Shown here piece after piece: positions 8,772-20,767 of a stretch of 64,000 bases of DNA. The stretch covers positions 1 to 64,000 of the forward strand of contig JAJZSQ010000003.1 in assembly GCA_021849615.1 (NCBI GenBank), written 5' to 3'. The notes under the pieces are model-generated. The model was not told where the DNA came from. It saw nothing but the letters and a program-made list of their open reading frames with translations, and did not search any database. Position 1 is the first letter of the stretch, and each line of letters begins with the position of its first letter. This DNA comes from Pseudomonadota bacterium (GTDB lineage: Bacteria; Pseudomonadota; Gammaproteobacteria; Steroidobacterales; Steroidobacteraceae). The position numbers and the translations under genes were made by a program.

Positions 8772-10736
8772 TCATCCCAGCATCCGATCGACACTCAGTC
8801 GCTGCGCACCATTCGACGCATCTCCGGGCGGTGCCTGGGGCGCGATGCAGCTGATGACGGTGCCGCCCGTCTTTCCGGCCCGAATGGTCAGCAGTCCCCC
8901 GATGGCGCTCGAGCGGTAGCGCATGGCATTGGTCCCGAATCCCGATCCTTTCGCGCGGTCCCGGTCGATGCCGTGACCGTCATCTTCGATCTCCAGCTTC
9001 ACTGCGGTGGACCGCACCGTCAGGCGCACCGCGATGCGGTGCGCATCGGCGTGCTTCAGTGCATTCTGAATCGCTTCCTGTGCGATGCGGTACAGGTGTG
9101 TCCGGGCTTCGAGCGACAGCCGCAGTTCCGATTCAATGTGGGTACTGGCCTCGATGTGTGTGTCGCCCACGGCGCTCGATCGGGCGAGCTGTGCCAGCGC
9201 TGCGGCCAGATCGCCATTGGAACTCATCAGCGGCGAGAGCCCGTGAGCAATATTGCGCGCATTGTCGAGCGCCGAGCCGATCCGGTCCGAGAGCCGGCCG
9301 AGCTCGGGGAACATCGGCAAGCTATGTTCCTCGAACCTTGCAGCGAGTTCACTCGTCAAGATTGAGGCGACGGTGAGGTCCTGCGCCAGTCCGTCGTGAA
9401 GATCCTGCCCGAAGCGGCGCTGCTCATCGGAAATGGCGGTGACCAGGGCACTCTCGAGCGCCTTGCGTTCGGACACATCGAAGGCGAAGACGAGCCATGC
9501 GGCGCATCCGCCGTACTCCACGCTCTGCGCCCAGATCTCGACGAAGACCGTCGTGCCGTCCCGGGCCCGTTGGCGTAACTCCAAGGGCTGGACGACGTTC
9601 GCGGTCAGCATCGTCGCCAGCGTCAGTTCCTCGTGCGGCATCGCCAGGACCGAGATCGTGGATTGAAGCAGCTCGCCTCGAGCGTAGCCGTACTGGCGTT
9701 CAGCAGCGGAATTCACTGCCAGGAAGCGCAGTGTCTCCCGGTCGTGCACCCAGAGTGGCTGCGGGCAGGCGTCAAACAGCTGTTCGTAGCGCCGCTCCAG
9801 ACGCCGCTGCTCGGCGAGCAGCCAAGCGATGAGCAGCACCGGCACGGTGGTGGCTCCGATGTACGACCAGAGCATCACCAGTCCATCGATTTGATCCATC
9901 CGGCTCAGGATGCCGACGTCAAATGCCATTCCGCATACGGCCGTCGCGGTAAGCACGAGTCCGGCCGCGGCTGCGGGTACGAGCCCGAATCGCAGACACG
10001 TCGTCGCCACCAAAATGGTGCACGCGAGCAGGGCCGGGGCGCGCAGGAAGCGGTAGGCCGGAACCATGCCGGGCGCAAAGAGCATGACGGCGACGAGCGT
10101 GAGCAGCAGCACCAGGAGCAGACTGGCCGCGATCGGCTGCGCTCGCAGCGGCTGAAGGGCTTTCCATCGGGCGGCTACCAGCAGCGGGCCCAGGATCAAT
10201 GCGCCCATGAAGTCGTTCAGCCACCACCGGAGCCCGTCGATCAAGGTCCAGGCGGAGTGGTACATCGGGTCAATGGGGTACCACGCGGCGAACGTTCCAG
10301 CCCCCACCGCGGCGGGGATGAGCGTGCCGATCAGCGCCGCTGCCGCAAACAATGGGATGTCGCGTCCATGCTCGAAAGTGTCGTCAAAGTCGTAGCGTTG
10401 CAGGAGCCAGACAACGGTGAACACGCCCGCCGGCAGGCCCAGCTCGGCGATCATCGCCGGCGCGAGACTGCGGCCGTTGAGCAGGTCCACGAGCACGTTG
10501 GCTGCGTAGACGGGAACGTACTGCACGGGGCCCCAGCGGATCACCGCCGCCAGCGCGACCCCGCTGCCGAGCAGCCAGACCGCGACCCGGCCGCTCCAGC
10601 CCGGCGGTTGGATGCCGTGCGCGCAGATCGCGACGATGGCGACGAATACGATCAGGATGCGCGCGGCGATCCGAAGGGGGCCCGGCTCCCTCGGCGGACC
10701 CTTCGTGCCTGTCATCGCGGCATCGCTGCGCGGCAT
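8772..10736 (-). CDS. MASE1-like membrane sensor, PAS, HisKA_3 sensor histidine kinase
   Basis: Multi-TM N-terminus, PAS-like segment, RRFGQDLHDGLAQDLT H-box (HisKA_3), EAIQNALKHA N-box, DDGHGI and GFGTNAMRYR. Confidence 0.88.
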   Translation of the reverse strand: MPRSDAAMTGTKGPPREPGPLRIAARILIVFVAIVAICAHGIQPPGWSGRVAVWLLGSGVALAAVIRWGPVQYVPVYAANVLVDLLNGRSLAPAMIAELGLPAGVFTVVWLLQRYDFDDTFEHGRDIPLFAAAALIGTLIPAAVGAGTFAAWYPIDPMYHSAWTLIDGLRWWLNDFMGALILGPLLVAARWKALQPLRAQPIAASLLLVLLLTLVAVMLFAPGMVPAYRFLRAPALLACTILVATTCLRFGLVPAAAAGLVLTATAVCGMAFDVGILSRMDQIDGLVMLWSYIGATTVPVLLIAWLLAEQRRLERRYEQLFDACPQPLWVHDRETLRFLAVNSAAERQYGYARGELLQSTISVLAMPHEELTLATMLTANVVQPLELRQRARDGTTVFVEIWAQSVEYGGCAAWLVFAFDVSERKALESALVTAISDEQRRFGQDLHDGLAQDLTVASILTSELAARFEEHSLPMFPELGRLSDRIGSALDNARNIAHGLSPLMSSNGDLAAALAQLARSSAVGDTHIEASTHIESELRLSLEARTHLYRIAQEAIQNALKHADAHRIAVRLTVRSTAVKLEIEDDGHGIDRDRAKGSGFGTNAMRYRSSAIGGLLTIRAGKTGGTVISCIAPQAPPGDASNGAQRLSVDRMLG

Positions 10737-10922
10737 GGCTGTGATTGCGCCCGTGGCTCTGGACGGTGATCGGGGTGTTCAGCCGGCTGCTTCTGACTTG
10801 AAAATCATGGTATCACAGGGGCTCAGCCCCAAGATGCGAGGCCCTTCTCAGGGTGCCGACTCGTCCTCGCTGGCTCACAGCCGATGAGTCCTCAGCCCCC
10901 GCCGTGGGCCGCAGAGGTGAGT

Positions 10923-12044
10923 TCAGCCGAGCAGGCCGACGGTCGGACGGCCGAACAGATAGCCCTGCAGGAAGTCCGCACCCAGTCTCGTGACCATCTC
11001 GGCCTCGGCATGCGTCTCGATGCCTTCGACGATGAGTTGTGCCTGGGTTGCCTTGGCGACGCTGACCAGCAATTCGAAGAGTCGTTGTTTGCGCGTATCG
11101 GAATCGATGTCCCGTGCGATGGTCATGTCCACCTTGACGAACGCGGCACGAAGCTCGGCGAGGACCGACAGAGAGTTGTAGCCGGCGCCGAGGTCATCCA
11201 CCGCGATGCGAAAGCCGGCCTGGGTGAGGAATTCGACGGCATGGCGCCAGTTCATGATCTGCAGCACATCGGCCCGTTCGGTGATCTCGACGACGATGCG
11301 CGAGGCATGGGCGGCGAGCGGCTCGAGCCGGCGGCGCACCTGTTCGAGATCGTTCAGTTCCGCCGGGTGCGAGTTCATGAACAGCAGCGCGTCGGCCGGC
11401 ATGACCGTGAGGACTCGTTCGACGCACCCGGCGACCGCATCCGCGAGCCGCCCGATCATTCCGTGCGCTTCTGCGGCGGAAATCATCGCGAGCGGAGAGT
11501 CGAATCCCGGATGCCTGCTGCGCAGCAGCGCCTCGTAGCCGATCACGCTGTGATCGATCGCGCGTACCAGCGGCTGCAACGCGAGGGTGAACGCGCCAGA
11601 GAGCAGGCATTCCTCGAGTTGGCGGTGCTGCTGATCGAAGCCGTCGCGCAGCGAGCCGATGTAGACCTCGCGCAGCTTGGCGCGGCCCTCGAGAGCGCCC
11701 TCGAGGGCGCTGAGAATGTGCTGCCGGTCGAAGGGCTTGGGTATGACGCGGGCGATCTCGCCGCGGTTGACGGCATCCACCACGACCGGAAGGTCGAGCG
11801 TACCCGACATCAGGAGGCGGACACATTTCGGCTGGATCTCGCGCAGCCGGTTGAGCACGTCGAGCCCGTTGGGTGGCGGAATCTGATAATCGACGATCGC
11901 GGCGTCGTAATCCGCCCCGAGGGTGCGCGTCAGCGCCTCAGTGCCGTCCGCGGCCGTGTCCACTTCGTGACCCAGCCGCAGCAGAATCGAACTGAGGACC
12001 TCGCGCAGACCGGCGTCATCGTCGACCACGAGTATGCGCGGCAT
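10923..12044 (-). CDS. Response regulator with REC and EAL domains
   Basis: MPRILVVDDDAGLREVL, phosphoacceptor region AIVDYQ, IGYEALLRSRHP, VDDLGAGYNSL, IVEGIETHAEAEMVTRLGADFLQGYLFGRP. Confidence 0.92.
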   Translation of the reverse strand: MPRILVVDDDAGLREVLSSILLRLGHEVDTAADGTEALTRTLGADYDAAIVDYQIPPPNGLDVLNRLREIQPKCVRLLMSGTLDLPVVVDAVNRGEIARVIPKPFDRQHILSALEGALEGRAKLREVYIGSLRDGFDQQHRQLEECLLSGAFTLALQPLVRAIDHSVIGYEALLRSRHPGFDSPLAMISAAEAHGMIGRLADAVAGCVERVLTVMPADALLFMNSHPAELNDLEQVRRRLEPLAAHASRIVVEITERADVLQIMNWRHAVEFLTQAGFRIAVDDLGAGYNSLSVLAELRAAFVKVDMTIARDIDSDTRKQRLFELLVSVAKATQAQLIVEGIETHAEAEMVTRLGADFLQGYLFGRPTVGLLG

Positions 12045-13766: not shown

Positions 13767-14072
13767 GCTGCTCCCCTGGTGAATCGAGCGTTGTGAAGGT
13801 CTGGCTGCTGTAGCGTTCAGCGTCTCTCTGCCGTTCAGAACACGGCCACGCCTCACGAGTTGCATGCCGTGAGCAGGGGGCGCCGAATGTGACCCCGGCC
13901 TGACTCCAGGGTGGTGGTTCTCGTCGTCCGTGCGCGGGGAATCCGCCTCAGGAGACCGCCATCCGGAAGGTGATTCGGTCCCGACACATGTCTCGCCGCC
14001 GCAGCGGCCGGACGGCTGGGTCGTGCGGGACGCCTGCCAATTATTTCAGGCACTTGGCGGTCTGTCTCTTCG

Positions 14073-14088
14073 TGGCACGGGGGTTGCT
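14073..14088 (+). promoter_or_regulatory. Sigma-54 (-24/-12) promoter
   Basis: TGGCACG-GGGG-TTGCT, exact match to the TGGCACG-N4-TTGC(A/T) consensus; GG and GC dinucleotides 12 nt apart; ATG of the Gly-rich gene lies at 14184. Confidence 0.85.
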
Positions 14089-14183
14089 TGAAGAGCGCTG
14101 CAGCCAGGAACCGACTGTGTGCAGTGGTGAGCGGCGGCGCAATGCATCGCGAAGTCAAACCATCCATGTGCGGAGAACCCTCA

Positions 14184-15374
14184 ATGAAGACGAATAAACT
14201 GATTGCCATGGCCATCGCCGTGGCGCTGGCGTCGGCCTCTGGGCTGGCGATGGCGAGTAACGGAGGTGGAGGAGGCGGTCCTCCATCGAAGTCCGTCACG
14301 AAGAACAGCACGGCAACGCAGGGCGGCAACGGCAGCCCGCAAGCGAACCTCGGTTCGTCGGCGAACGTCAGCAGTTATGACCCGACGACGACGACGAATA
14401 TGAACGTGACGAAGACCGTCACCAACGATACGTGGAACACGACAGTTGCGGCGACGTCGAATCTGAACGCGACGGTGTCCGGAAATACGGTTGCCGGCGT
14501 CGGCAATACCGCCTGGAATACCGGCAATGCCAACGGTGCCAGCGGAGCCGCGGGCGGTCGCGGTGGCGCCGGATATGGCGGCCCGAGTGGTGGATCCTCG
14601 GCGAGTATGTCCACCGCCGGAGGCAACGGAGCGAAGGGCGCCGTCGGGGCGCAGGGCGGTTCGGTGACCGCTGGCGACACCACCAACGGAAGCGCCAGCA
14701 ACGGCAGCGCGCATGCCGGTGAAGGTGGAAACGGCGGGGACGTTGGTTTCACCAAGACCGGAGCCGGAGGCGGAGGCGCCGGGATGGGCGGACCGGCGAC
14801 GGGCGGACTCAGTGCCGCAACGAACAATGGCTCGAGCGGCAGCGGATCGGGACGGCCGGGACCCTACAGCAGCTATCCGGGTGGCTCGAGTGCTCAGCCG
14901 AATAACGCGAGCAGCGGCAACGGCGGGGATGCCTCGGCCGGCAGTGGCACCGGTGGCGGCGCGGCCAACACGGTGGCGAGCACGAATACGGCCGGACAAG
15001 GCGGGTCAGGCGGCTCTGCCGCCAATGGCTACGCGGCGAATGGCAGTGCGACGGCATCGCTCGGCAATGCCGGCAGCGGCGGCAGCGGTGGCAACGGCGG
15101 CAGCGGCGGATCCGGTACCGGAGGCACGCAGGCGACGACGACCGGAACCGGTGGCGTCGGCAACGGAGCGGTCGGGGGAGCGGGTGGCGCAGGGGGCATG
15201 GGCGGAAACAATACCGTGACCGCCGGGACATTCGATATGTCCAACAACATCAGCAGCGCCTTCACCAATGGGGCGGGCATCACGGTGGCGAGCCAGAACA
15301 GCGGCATGTCGTCGCTGATTCAGCAGAGCGTCAACGTGCAGGCCAACCTGTCGCTTTCGGCGACCGGTCATTAG
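14184..15374 (+). CDS. Gly/Asn/Ser-rich secreted protein, putative surface fibre (amyloid-like) subunit
   Basis: Signal peptide MKTNKLIAMAIAVALASASGLAMA; low-complexity GGNGGSGGSG body; C-terminal module ISSAFTNGAGITVASQNSGMSSLIQQSVNVQANLSL. The track start at 14088 falls inside the sigma-54 promoter. Confidence 0.8.
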   Translation: MKTNKLIAMAIAVALASASGLAMASNGGGGGGPPSKSVTKNSTATQGGNGSPQANLGSSANVSSYDPTTTTNMNVTKTVTNDTWNTTVAATSNLNATVSGNTVAGVGNTAWNTGNANGASGAAGGRGGAGYGGPSGGSSASMSTAGGNGAKGAVGAQGGSVTAGDTTNGSASNGSAHAGEGGNGGDVGFTKTGAGGGGAGMGGPATGGLSAATNNGSSGSGSGRPGPYSSYPGGSSAQPNNASSGNGGDASAGSGTGGGAANTVASTNTAGQGGSGGSAANGYAANGSATASLGNAGSGGSGGNGGSGGSGTGGTQATTTGTGGVGNGAVGGAGGAGGMGGNNTVTAGTFDMSNNISSAFTNGAGITVASQNSGMSSLIQQSVNVQANLSLSATGH

Positions 15375-15948: not shown

Positions 15949-16650
15949 GTGAAAAGGGTTCAGGGGGCGACGCTCCCGATGGCGCTCGGGCTGCTGGCGG
16001 TAAGCGCCGCGCACGCCGAAGGCATGATCCAGGTGAGTGCCGGGGAGTCGTATTCGGTGCCCGTGCACACGTTGCAGCAGATGCGTTATGAATGGGCATT
16101 CCGCCGCACGGTGCATCAGCGATACGACTTCAGTTGTGGTTCGGCGGCGCTCGCGACGCTACTGACCTACCAATACGGGCGCCCGACTACCGAGACCGCC
16201 GTGTTCCGCTCGATGTACGCGGTGGGCAATCAGGCGCAGATCCGTGTCGAGGGCTTCTCGCTGCTCGATATGAAGCGTTATCTGCAGAGTCTGGGCTACG
16301 TGGCTGACGGGGTGCGGGTCCCTCTGAGCACGCTGATCAGGATCGGCATCCCGGCGATCGCCCTGATCACCGATCACGGCTACCGGCACTTCGTCGTCGT
16401 CAAGGGCGCCAGTGCCTATCGGGTGGTGCTCGGGGATCCGGCGCTTGGCCGCCGGGTCATGTCCCGCAAGGCGTTCGCGCGCGTGCGGGTGGGCAATCTG
16501 TTCTTCGTGATCCGCAACGATCTGAATATCGCCCGGTTCAATCTGCCGGCCGACTGGAGATCGGCGACGCCGCCGCCGCTGTTCCTCGGCGTGGATCGGC
16601 ATTCACTGGCCCTTGAATTCCTTGAAATTCCAAACGGGAATCGCTTCTGA
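15949..16650 (+). CDS. C39-family (FapD-like) secreted cysteine peptidase
   Basis: GTG start; signal peptide; YDFSCGSAALATLLTYQYGRP with catalytic Cys, GFSLLDMKRYLQSLGYVADG, GYRHFVVVKG His, GDPALG Asp. Confidence 0.88.
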   Translation: MKRVQGATLPMALGLLAVSAAHAEGMIQVSAGESYSVPVHTLQQMRYEWAFRRTVHQRYDFSCGSAALATLLTYQYGRPTTETAVFRSMYAVGNQAQIRVEGFSLLDMKRYLQSLGYVADGVRVPLSTLIRIGIPAIALITDHGYRHFVVVKGASAYRVVLGDPALGRRVMSRKAFARVRVGNLFFVIRNDLNIARFNLPADWRSATPPPLFLGVDRHSLALEFLEIPNGNRF

Positions 16651-16666: not shown

Positions 16667-17755
16667 ATGCGCATTCTCAAACCGTTGATCCTGGGGCTGT
16701 GCGTCGGCTCCAGTGCGGCTGCGGTGGCCTCGCCGGTGAGCATTCTGGCCGCGGAACGGGCCGAAGCTTCCTGGGTCGTCGTGCCGGATGCGGAGCTCGC
16801 CCGGCTGCACGGCGGCTTCGACTTTGGTCAAGGCAACCTGGTTGCGTATTTCGCCATCGCACGCACCGTGGAGGTGAACGGCCAGGTGGTGGCCCAGATG
16901 CAGCTGGTGATCTCCAATCTCGGCAATCTCGCCTCCGGTGGCCAGCCGCAGATTTCCGTTACCGGTCCGCTTGCCCAGCTGATCCAGGTGCTCAATTCGG
17001 GACAGGGAGCATCGGCGAGCGGTGCGGCGGGAGTGCCGGTTGACGCCGCCCTGCCGCTCCTCGCCTCGCCGGCGGGAGCCACTCCGGTCGCAAGCTCGGT
17101 TGTCGCTGCCTCGAGTTCCCCGGGCGTGACGAGCGGCTCGGTGAGCTCTCCTGACGTGCAGAGCGGATCGACGGCCCAATTCGGTGGTGCGCTCTCCAGT
17201 GCCGTTGCGGCGGCCAATGGTGCACTGACCGGGGGAGGCGGCGGAACGGCGCCGGCAACCGCTGCGCCCGCCGCCGGAGCCGTCGGTGCGCGCACCGCGC
17301 CGTTGCCGGCCCAGGTGAGTCCGACGGTCCAGGCCGGCCCCGTGGCCTCTGCGAGTCCGCCAGCCTCGGTAGCGCCGGCAACCACTGCGCCCGCCCCCGG
17401 ACCGGCCGGCGCGCGGACTGCGCCGCTGCCGGCGCAGGTGAGTCCGACGGTCCAGGCCGGTCCCGTGGCCTCTGCGAGTCTGCCAGCCCCGGTAGCGCCA
17501 GCCCCAGCCGCGGTGGCGACCGCATCGCCGCCGGTGACGAGTGCGCCCGGCCCCGGCGGGGTGGTGCCCGTCATCGTGATCAGCAATCTCCCGAACGCAA
17601 CCGCCATCACGACGGCGGTGCAGAACGACGTGCAGGCAACCACCGTCCAGACTCAGACCACCATCACCGCGACGCTGGGCAGCCTGCCTGTGGTCAATGC
17701 GATGTCGCTGGCGGCTGCGATCCAGTCGCAGGTGGCCGCCTCGATCGGACACTGA
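16667..17755 (+). CDS. Secreted FapE-like protein with Ala/Pro-rich tandem repeats
   Basis: Signal peptide MRILKPLILGLCVGSSAAAVA; AELARLHGGFDFGQGNLVAYFAIARTVEVNGQVVAQMQLVISNL; C-terminal Gln/Thr-rich NDVQATTVQTQTTITATL; position after the C39 peptidase. Confidence 0.65.
   Translation: MRILKPLILGLCVGSSAAAVASPVSILAAERAEASWVVVPDAELARLHGGFDFGQGNLVAYFAIARTVEVNGQVVAQMQLVISNLGNLASGGQPQISVTGPLAQLIQVLNSGQGASASGAAGVPVDAALPLLASPAGATPVASSVVAASSSPGVTSGSVSSPDVQSGSTAQFGGALSSAVAAANGALTGGGGGTAPATAAPAAGAVGARTAPLPAQVSPTVQAGPVASASPPASVAPATTAPAPGPAGARTAPLPAQVSPTVQAGPVASASLPAPVAPAPAAVATASPPVTSAPGPGGVVPVIVISNLPNATAITTAVQNDVQATTVQTQTTITATLGSLPVVNAMSLAAAIQSQVAASIGH
17264..17509 (+). repeat. Two tandem 123-bp (41-aa) repeats inside the FapE-like gene
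   Basis: APAAGAVGARTAPLPAQVSPTVQAGPVASASPPASVAPATT followed by APAPGPAGARTAPLPAQVSPTVQAGPVASASLPAPVAPAPA; GTGAGTCCGACGGTCCAGGCCGG at 17315 and 17438. Confidence 0.88.
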
Positions 17756-17769
17756 TGCGTCGCGCCCCC

Positions 17770-18819
17770 TCAGAAGGACATCGGCAGACGGATGGTCGCC
17801 TCGAGATCGGGCGAATCGCGTGTGACGCCCACGCCGATCGTTATGTTCATCAGCGTGCGCGGATTGACCCGATAGGTGACGCCAAAGCGCAGCGTACCGA
17901 GCTGCAGGGTGCCGACCCGGGCGAGCGCCAATCCGCTCGCAGGAGTCGTCTGGGTGGTCTGGAAGACGATGCTGTGCTGGTAGCCAATGCTGAAAGACGC
18001 GCGCGCATTGAGCGCAAGACCCATGCCGAGGGTCACGTCGATGATGGCTCCGGGGTGGATGTACCCGTATCCGTGTCCCACATTGCGACTGATGCTGTAC
18101 GTGTAATCGGCACCTCCGAAGAAGACGGCCGGATCGGATGGCAGCAGGAACGTAATGCCGGGTTGAACCGCATTGAACCCGGAGCCCGTGGCGAGCGTGC
18201 TCTGCAGGCCGGTGTTCGGGTCGATCGGCTCCTGGAAGATGCTGGTCCCAGTGTGCGACTTGAACAGCAGCGACCCGATCCACACGATGTTGTTGCCGTG
18301 AAACTCGTTCAACTGCGCGCGCAGCGCCACTTCCGCATCGCCGATATCGCTGCCGGACGCATCAAAATACGAATTCGTGGTGGCTGCAGTGGCCAACGGG
18401 CGGGTCTCCGTGGTGGTGTTTGCAATCACGTACGGCACGCGCACTTCGATTTCAAGACGCCGCAGCAGCCCGTAACGTGCCGTCAGGTTGTAGGTCGTCA
18501 AATTGCTTTCGATGCGCTGAACGTCGATCAGCCCAATGGTCAGCGCAGGCAGGACCGTGTACCCGAGCAGGGCGATCTGATTGTTGGTGGAATGCACGTA
18601 TTGGATAGACGGTTCAAGAACGAGTGTGCCCTGTGGCGTCAATGCCGTTGGTTCGGAGAACACCTGTGCCGCCGGCGCCGGACCCTTCGGGGCCGCTGGC
18701 GCCTGGCCGACCGGAGCCGGCTGGGCAGCCGGTGGAGAATCGGCGGCGAATACATGAGCGCTGTGGGTCAAGGCCGCTGCGAGCAGCGCGCTTGCGGCAA
18801 GAATGTGGGAACGGCGCAT
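17770..18819 (-). CDS. Outer-membrane beta-barrel transporter-like protein (possible FapF functional analogue)
   Basis: Signal peptide; Ala/Pro-rich linker; many amphipathic strands; C-terminal LPMSF ending in Phe; sits directly downstream of the sigma-54 activator. Confidence 0.7.
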   Translation of the reverse strand: MRRSHILAASALLAAALTHSAHVFAADSPPAAQPAPVGQAPAAPKGPAPAAQVFSEPTALTPQGTLVLEPSIQYVHSTNNQIALLGYTVLPALTIGLIDVQRIESNLTTYNLTARYGLLRRLEIEVRVPYVIANTTTETRPLATAATTNSYFDASGSDIGDAEVALRAQLNEFHGNNIVWIGSLLFKSHTGTSIFQEPIDPNTGLQSTLATGSGFNAVQPGITFLLPSDPAVFFGGADYTYSISRNVGHGYGYIHPGAIIDVTLGMGLALNARASFSIGYQHSIVFQTTQTTPASGLALARVGTLQLGTLRFGVTYRVNPRTLMNITIGVGVTRDSPDLEATIRLPMSF

Positions 18820-18852
18820 TGTTCTTTCTCCCATGGCGTGGCGACGGATCGC

Positions 18853-20211
18853 TCAGGAGTCGAGCGCACTGAAACCCCGACGCGGTGACATACCTAGGCG
18901 CTTGAGGATCCGGTAGAGAGTGACCCGCGAGACACCGAGCTCGCGCGCGGTTGCCGCGATGTTGTGGCCGCTGCGGTCGAGTGCTGTCTCGATGAGTTGC
19001 CGTTCAGTCCCCGCACGCGCATCGGCCAGTGAGCCGCTGGCGCAGAGCGCGCCGCGCCGTTCGAGCTGCAGGTCCGCCGGAGTGATGAGCGATCCGTTGC
19101 ACATCACGACGGCATGCTGGACTTTGTTCAGAAGCTCACGGATGTTCCCGGGCCAGCTGTGATGCCGGATCGCAGTGAGCGCCGCTTCGGAGAAGCCGCG
19201 CACGCCGGGCTGTCGGCCGGTGACTTCCCGGCGCAGGAAGTGCTCGGCCAGCAGGACACTGTCCGCGCCGCGTGAGCGCAGCGGCGGGATCTCGACATGC
19301 AGGACATTCAGCCGGTAGAACAGGTCCTCGCGAAACTCTCCGGATCGAACCGCGGCACTGAGGTCCTTGTGCGTTGCGGCGATGACGCGCGCATCGATCC
19401 GCAGCTCGTGAGTCGAACCGACACGAGTCACCGTGGACTCCTGCAGAAAGCGCAGCAGGCTCGCCTGGGCCGCTCGCGGCAGGTCGCCGATCTCGTCGAG
19501 GAAGATCGTGCCATGATGCGCCGCTTCGATCGAGCCGATCTGACGTTCGTGCGCGCCGGTAAAGGAGCCGCGTTCATGTCCGAACAGCAGGCTTTCAATG
19601 AGCGCCTGGGGCAGCGCGCCACAATTGACCGGCACGAACGGACCGGCGGACCGTTCGGATCCGCAGTGCACTGCGCGGGCGGCGAGCTCTTTGCCCACGC
19701 CGCTCTCGCCGGTCAACAGCAATGGCGCGCCGGCTCGCATCACCCGCTCGAGCTGCCGATACAGCGTCTGCATGCCGGGGCTCTCGCCGATCATGCCGTA
19801 CTGGCCGCGGCCGGGCATCGCTGGGGCGAATGCGGCGCGGCGCAGCACCGATTTCCCGTAAGCGTGCCCCAACGAATGCAACAGGCGCGCACCGTCGAGC
19901 GGCAGCGTGTGAAAGTCGAAGAATACCGAGGCGAGCGCACGCGCCGTGCGCGGGTCTTGAGGCGCTTCCTTGGGGATGACGGCCAGCCATTCCATGTCGC
20001 TTGGCGCGCCGACGGTCAAGAAGTCACCCGGGGTGCAGGCGAGCGCTTCGTCGAACACTGCAACCCCAACAGTAGTGTCCAATTCACCACCCGGCTTGCG
20101 GACCTCGGCCAAGGAGGTTGCACGGCGGATCTCCCAGTTCTGGGCGGTGAACAGACTGACGAGATCCAGTGAGGAGCCGTCGCCTTGAAGTACGACAACG
20201 CGCCGAAGCAT
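18853..20211 (-). CDS. Sigma-54-dependent Fis-family activator, VpsR-like N-terminal region
   Basis: LLTGESGVGKELAARAVH Walker A, GSFTGA loop variant, TIFLDEIGDLP Walker B, Fis HTH NIAATARELGVSRVTLYRILKRLGM. Confidence 0.92.
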   Translation of the reverse strand: MLRRVVVLQGDGSSLDLVSLFTAQNWEIRRATSLAEVRKPGGELDTTVGVAVFDEALACTPGDFLTVGAPSDMEWLAVIPKEAPQDPRTARALASVFFDFHTLPLDGARLLHSLGHAYGKSVLRRAAFAPAMPGRGQYGMIGESPGMQTLYRQLERVMRAGAPLLLTGESGVGKELAARAVHCGSERSAGPFVPVNCGALPQALIESLLFGHERGSFTGAHERQIGSIEAAHHGTIFLDEIGDLPRAAQASLLRFLQESTVTRVGSTHELRIDARVIAATHKDLSAAVRSGEFREDLFYRLNVLHVEIPPLRSRGADSVLLAEHFLRREVTGRQPGVRGFSEAALTAIRHHSWPGNIRELLNKVQHAVVMCNGSLITPADLQLERRGALCASGSLADARAGTERQLIETALDRSGHNIAATARELGVSRVTLYRILKRLGMSPRRGFSALDS

Positions 20212-20767
20212 TGGGTGGGCTTCTTATGCTACGTGCATGCCGCGGCACGCTATAGCGGCACGGGTGCGACTCACAGTGGGGGTTGTACGTAGCGCGGTTA
20301 GTGCCTGAGGTTCCGCACCGTGTCTGGTTCCCTCAGTTGCTAAAGTGAAGAACGTGTAAAAAGACTGCGGGAATCAGCGCCGGCCGACCCCAATCGGACT
20401 CGATCGGTGTCGTCAATAAACGCGGGCAGCTCCGAACGCGAGGGGTTTCAGGGTTTTATGTATCAGGTGTGACACAGGGTCAGTTTTGATCCGAGTCACG
20501 CGTGAGCCGGTAAGGATGAAAAAAGGCATCTGCACGCAATTTGAGAATGACTGTCCGCGCGGAAGGTATCGTCAAGAAGCCCGGTGAAAAGGTGTGCAGC
20601 GGACGGGGCGCGACCGACTCAACGCGCAGACTGCGCGGGCGGGACCTCGACCGTTCCGGTGCGCAGAATTTCTGCGTCCTGTTGTGGCCTGGGACGACAT
20701 GAGGACGCAACCGCGAGTGGTTGGGCGAAATGACGTTCGGCGCCGACCTCGGCGTTGCCGCGGACCC

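Follow-up and report, generated by a model that had tools for sequence, protein, structure and literature searches.

A predicted sigma-54 promoter and linked activator for a divergent Fap-like fibre operon in a Steroidobacteraceae bacterium

The sequence TGGCACG-GGGG-TTGCT, found in a 64-kb stretch of DNA from a Steroidobacteraceae bacterium (hereafter the window), is in our view a working sigma-54 promoter that drives an operon for a Fap-like fibre and is opened by the product of a linked activator gene; we give this reading a probability of about 85%. The features concerned are collected in Table 1. A sigma-54 promoter had been assigned to the Gly-rich gene in the original prediction, and this assignment is now supported, as far as sequence comparison can do so, by the presence of RpoN, conservation of the site, the linked activator gene and a candidate upstream dyad.

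Table 1. Features of the predicted promoter, the fibre operon and the activator-barrel unit (positions in the window).
Feature	Position	Strand	Evidence or remark
Candidate activator dyad 1, TGATTCGGTCCCGACACA	13971..13988		Centre 93 bp upstream of the -24 element
Second, weaker candidate dyad, TGTCTCGCCGCCGCAGCG, abutting dyad 1	13989..14006		Better matches in loci L037 (14.4) and L038 (20.8)
IHF-like site, TTTCAGGCACTTG, one mismatch to WATCARNNNNTTR	14044..14056	+	Weak; IHF-like sequence aligned in relatives
Predicted -24/-12 sigma-54 promoter, TGGCACG-GGGG-TTGCT	14073..14088	+	Consensus match, counts, conservation
Predicted transcription start (~14099) and conserved beginning of 5' UTR, TGCAGCCAGGAACC	14099..14112	+	Spacing inference; alignment of relatives
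Gly-rich secreted protein, 396 aa, first gene of operon	14184..15374	+	C-terminal motif kept in homologous loci
Small secreted protein, 165 aa	15441..15938	+	Related C-terminal motif, IVIQNSGNNVLIQNS
C39 peptidase, FapD-like	15949..16650	+	PF03412, 2.2e-17; NF058616 C39_FapD, 3e-37
Pro/Ala-rich secreted protein at FapE position	16667..17755	+	Weakly conserved
Outer-membrane barrel, FapF-like	17770..18834	-	NF058560 FapF, 2e-31; FapF structures
Sigma-54 activator: VpsR domain, AAA+ with GSFTGA, Fis-type HTH	18853..20211	-	PF20161, PF00158, PF02954; alignment
Exact candidate activator dyad, TGTATCAGGTGTGACACA	20459..20476		248 bp upstream of activator ATG

The promoter sequence, TGGCACGGGGGTTGCT, has no mismatch to TGGCACRNNNNTTGCW; it fits TGGCAY-N5-TTGCW with the invariant GG-N10-GC, and no other sequence in the window matches TGGCACRNNNNTTGCW, even with one mismatch allowed (shuffled sequences give 1.15 matches at this setting), so that the exact consensus and correct GG-to-GC spacing claimed at the outset were both confirmed. 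In the organism's own genome, a 3.19-Mb draft of 218 contigs that is 87% complete, the exact pattern TGGCAC-N5-TTGCW occurs at 11 sites, compared with one for the reversed-pattern control; summed over 15 related genomes, the counts are 103 and 35. From the latter we estimate the chance of an exact match at about 0.04 per 64-kb window, and the controls imply that about two-thirds of the exact sites in the 15-genome group, and about nine-tenths in the own genome, are in excess of the control level. RpoN itself is encoded in the own genome (PF04552, E = 8.5e-67). Seven of the other 10 exact sites there lie 31–76 nt ahead of plausible sigma-54 genes, which, by names read off the protein sequences rather than from a family search, encode FlgB, FliL, two PEP-CTERM proteins, two copies of a porin and a lipoprotein.

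Two of these exact sites (L003 and L005) stand 48 and ~31–85 nt ahead of genes with PEP-CTERM-like ends (PEPGALAMF...RRRR), which suggests a separate sigma-54 PEP-CTERM regulon in this genome. The two porin loci (L004 and L008) share the sigma-54 site and porin gene on near-identical stretches of contig; either the region was duplicated recently or the draft contains redundant strain sequences.

Transcription from the promoter would be expected to begin 12 nt past the GC of the -12 element, at ~14099; this spacing rule gives a predicted distance of 85 nt to the ATG at 14184, the value originally proposed. That ATG is preceded by GGAG, the sequence upstream of it is conserved in relatives, and a signal peptide, MKTNKLIAMAIAVALASASGLAMA, begins there and is likewise kept. 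The in-frame TTG at 14088, listed as the start in the open reading frame track, shares the promoter's final base and would go untranscribed; it is therefore not the start, as had been suspected. The first transcribed bases, TGCAGCCAGGAACC, are kept in four of the five aligned loci when one substitution is allowed and partly in the fifth (G149); they are also present in L045 and absent from other genera. A structured 5' UTR or RNA switch was considered and rejected, as the leader folds no better than shuffled sequences (z = 0.81).

Conservation of the promoter was examined in relatives. Searched with the peptidase, 150 genomes of the family gave 20 with a match, and close orthologues were found in four of them, three belonging to the genus of the window's organism and one (G149) to another genus. 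Those relatives (G102, G119, G038 and G149) have the gene order of the window, including the convergent activator-barrel unit, and their -24/-12 sites before the Gly-rich gene read TGGCACGAGGGTTGCT twice, TGGCACGGTCCTTGCT and TGGCATAGCGCTTGCT. When the upstream regions are aligned, the flanks have diverged, and the conserved blocks are one centred on ACATGT at ~85 bp upstream, one resembling an IHF site, the -24/-12 element and the predicted first bases of the transcript. The IHF-like site is graded as weak because the window has many such matches (23, where 14 are expected).

In this genus, activator and operon are strictly inherited together. Among 14 genomes, four have the operon together with an orthologous activator (661–996 bits) and 10 have neither; these 10 contain only activator paralogues that score at most 280 bits. 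Outside the genus, G149 has both operon and activator (575 bits). In four loci from other genera of the family (L039–L042), related peptidase and barrel genes are present, and the fetched stretches contain no activator and no sigma-54 site scoring above 14.9.

A scan of named genomes extended the comparison to 80 homologous loci in the beta- and gammaproteobacteria, the genera including Cupriavidus, Variovorax, Burkholderia, Lysobacter, Luteimonas, Dyella, Massilia, Dechloromonas and Ectothiorhodospira. For 63 loci we scored the best coding-strand site within 300 bp of the first ATG, some gene starts being partial. The mean score was 14.5 for loci with a linked activator and 13.7 for those with none within 10 kb, compared with opposite-strand means of 11.8 and 11.9, respectively; no opposite-strand site reached 14.6. 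Sites typically lie ~50–120 nt ahead of the first gene of the operon, a placement that recurs in dozens of genera. All 49 complete sequences (48 loci and the window) carry GG-N10-GC, and 46 of them have the C of TGGCA and 46 the A. Because the best match in 200–300 bp was picked, part of this GG and GC invariance comes from the method itself; the position and the contrast between strands do not. A presence/absence link between activator and promoter across the 63 loci was rejected, because loci with no activator within 10 kb keep the site and have similar activators elsewhere in the genome. In full fapABCDEF loci, too, a sigma-54 site and a dyad occur together with a similar activator, which suggests one common control scheme.

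Upstream of the homologous promoters we found a shared dyad, TGTNNCA-N4-TGNNACA. A matrix trained on 27 dyads of other families, with the window and its relatives excluded, was run over the whole window. It placed TGATTCGGTCCCGACACA third in the 64 kb (P = 0.002 within the 200-bp upstream region), the first half of this dyad being imperfect. In several loci two dyads abut, and this generates the ACATGT junction, the strongest conserved upstream block. By this comparison the promoter appears to possess an upstream activator site. The top match of the matrix in the 64 kb is TGTATCAGGTGTGACACA, ahead of the activator gene, and a dyad is kept there in L035 and L036; its position may reflect autoregulation. 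The 600 bp upstream of the activator gene contain no adequate GG-N10-GC element (the best scores 13.0 of 16.2 and is not conserved), and we therefore claim only a dyad before this gene.

The dyad pattern alone is not enriched across the genome (26 occurrences at up to one mismatch, compared with 44 for the control), so it counts only in context. Three more exact dyads in the own genome (C30:5526, C91:1947 and C95:16495) are possibly other targets, or chance matches. Distances from dyad centre to -24 element in the homologous loci (L043–L122 and L153–L169) cluster near 73, 93, 105, 115, 128, 140 and 153 bp. With one value per genus, periods of 10.5 and 11.75 gave phase concentrations of 0.52 and 0.64, respectively, for these distances, related genera not being independent; the phasing looks as if the activator were restricted to one face of the helix.

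The system itself is Fap-like rather than a Fap equivalog, because its closest matches are to FapD and FapF but fall under the curated cut-offs. The peptidase scores 128 bits against NF058616 C39_FapD, below the equivalog cut-off of 330, although homology is clear; the barrel scores 109 bits against NF058560 FapF (cut-off 700) and, by sequence, matches the FapF crystal structures 5o67, 5o65 and 5o68 with E ~1e-19. When FapB and FapC subunits were sought in Pfam and NCBIfam, the Gly-rich protein had no match and the 165-aa protein none that was meaningful. These two proteins share a related end motif, ITVASQNSGMSSLIQQSV and IVIQNSGNNVLIQNST, conserved at ~40–79% across 40–80 residues in dozens of loci. 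The same databases held no usable family for the Pro/Ala-rich fourth protein, a putative FapE by virtue of its position alone; its gene more likely starts at the ATG at 16667, which is followed by a signal peptide, than at the listed TTG at 16613, which overlaps the peptidase gene. We infer that the operon makes a secreted, Fap-like (amyloid-like biofilm) fibre.

The activator gene lies 4.8 kb from the operon promoter, in agreement with the sigma-54 activator that had been located about 4 kb away in the same locus. Its product has the VpsR domain, AAA+ domain and Fis-type HTH of a BrfA-type activator and is linked to a fap-like operon, the assignment being by domains and linkage. The loop residues are GSFTGA, as compared with GAFTGA in two relatives, and structure matches are to VpsR (7v2b) and FleQ. 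Because the barrel gene follows 18 bp past the activator gene on the same strand, the pair is probably one transcript, convergent with the fibre operon. At 8772–12044, near the operon, a MASE1-PAS histidine kinase is encoded, as is an EAL-domain response regulator that may be a c-di-GMP phosphodiesterase.

The best characterized counterpart is fapA-E of Pseudomonas fluorescens PF07, which has an RpoN promoter with a start mapped by 5'-RACE and needs the adjacent, reverse-oriented BrfA (PMC9207406); BrfA senses c-di-GMP directly (PMC13101488). The window shares with PF07 the -24/-12 promoter before the first fibre gene, the adjacent reverse-oriented Fis-type sigma-54 activator, the C39 peptidase and the FapF-type barrel (PMC9207406). 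It differs in that its fibre proteins are Gly-rich, without recognized FapB or FapC, its FapD and FapF score under the equivalog cut-offs, and its barrel gene forms a unit with the activator; in PF07, fapF is expressed differently from fapA-E, and in the window, too, the barrel is a separate unit. Resemblance to the putative Fil pilus of Acinetobacter (NCBIfam FilB and FilC) extends to the peptidase (108 bits) and the barrel (39 bits), but these scores are lower than those to FapD and FapF and under both Fil cut-offs. The activator resembles VpsR and FleQ, c-di-GMP-responsive members of the superfamily, in its VpsR-type N-terminal domain, AAA+ domain and Fis HTH; unlike them, it has a -24/-12 promoter as its partner and retains the GSFTGA loop. 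Its best NCBIfam score is to the PEP-CTERM response regulator TIGR02915 (365.3 bits), which does not reach the cut-off of 502.6, and its gene neighbours are those of a Fap-like operon rather than PEP-CTERM genes.

We weighed other explanations of the site. The promoter could be a real sigma-54 promoter on which another activator, of PEP-CTERM or flagellar type, acts, with the linked one serving some other target. Exact sigma-54 sites do precede PEP-CTERM and flagellar genes in the same genome, the linked activator has the likeness to the PEP-CTERM regulator just described, and some homologous operons have no linked activator; nevertheless, in the genus the activator and the operon are strictly inherited as a pair, and a like dyad stands ahead of both the operon and the activator gene, which makes this arrangement unlikely.

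Far less probable is that the -24/-12 match arose by chance and a different promoter drives the operon. About one match per 64 kb is expected when one mismatch is allowed, and about a third of the exact sites over the 15 genomes are at control level, but a chance match would hardly be kept at the right place in homologous loci, and no sigma-70-like promoter was found on the plus strand of the promoter region. Silencing is known in principle for sigma-54 binding sites, and RpoN might accordingly be bound here mainly as a silencing regulator, with basal expression coming from elsewhere. The position, spacing, upstream dyads and linked activator, which together make up a complete promoter, and the positive regulation of fap by RpoN in PF07 (PMC9207406) leave this the least credible of the three.

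For a working promoter opened by the linked activator, we envisage that RNA polymerase–RpoN waits at the -24/-12 element as a closed complex, and that the VpsR-AAA+-Fis activator would bind the tandem dyads upstream. The bound activator would loop the DNA, perhaps with assistance from IHF, and its ATP hydrolysis would open the promoter, in the manner proposed for BrfA at fap of P. fluorescens. Probably the activator also regulates its own abundance, by binding the dyad ahead of its gene. By analogy with BrfA, c-di-GMP may be the signal.

Because control by RpoN and BrfA has been published for fap of P. fluorescens (PMC9207406), the scheme is already known, and the system of the window is a divergent one. 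Judged against the literature searched, the 2024 BrfA paper (Microbiol Res 287:127864) aside, what is new is that the scheme extends to a divergent Fap-like family in the beta- and gammaproteobacteria, along with the predicted enhancer dyad and the activator-barrel unit. We give roughly even odds to a broader view: that an ancient module, comprising a sigma-54 promoter, tandem dyads and a c-di-GMP-sensing activator of the VpsR/BrfA type, governs a superfamily of C39/FapF-secreted fibres in the beta- and gammaproteobacteria, beyond fap of Pseudomonas, with the enhancer recognized across lineages.

With this analysis, what was an unannotated Gly-rich cluster in an uncultured bacterium becomes a regulated fibre system that can be tested. 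The results suggest that RpoN/BrfA-type control is general to Fap-like operons and not a peculiarity of Pseudomonas, and the predicted enhancer motif could help in locating more targets and in examining control by c-di-GMP in cultured genera, for example Variovorax, Massilia or Cupriavidus.
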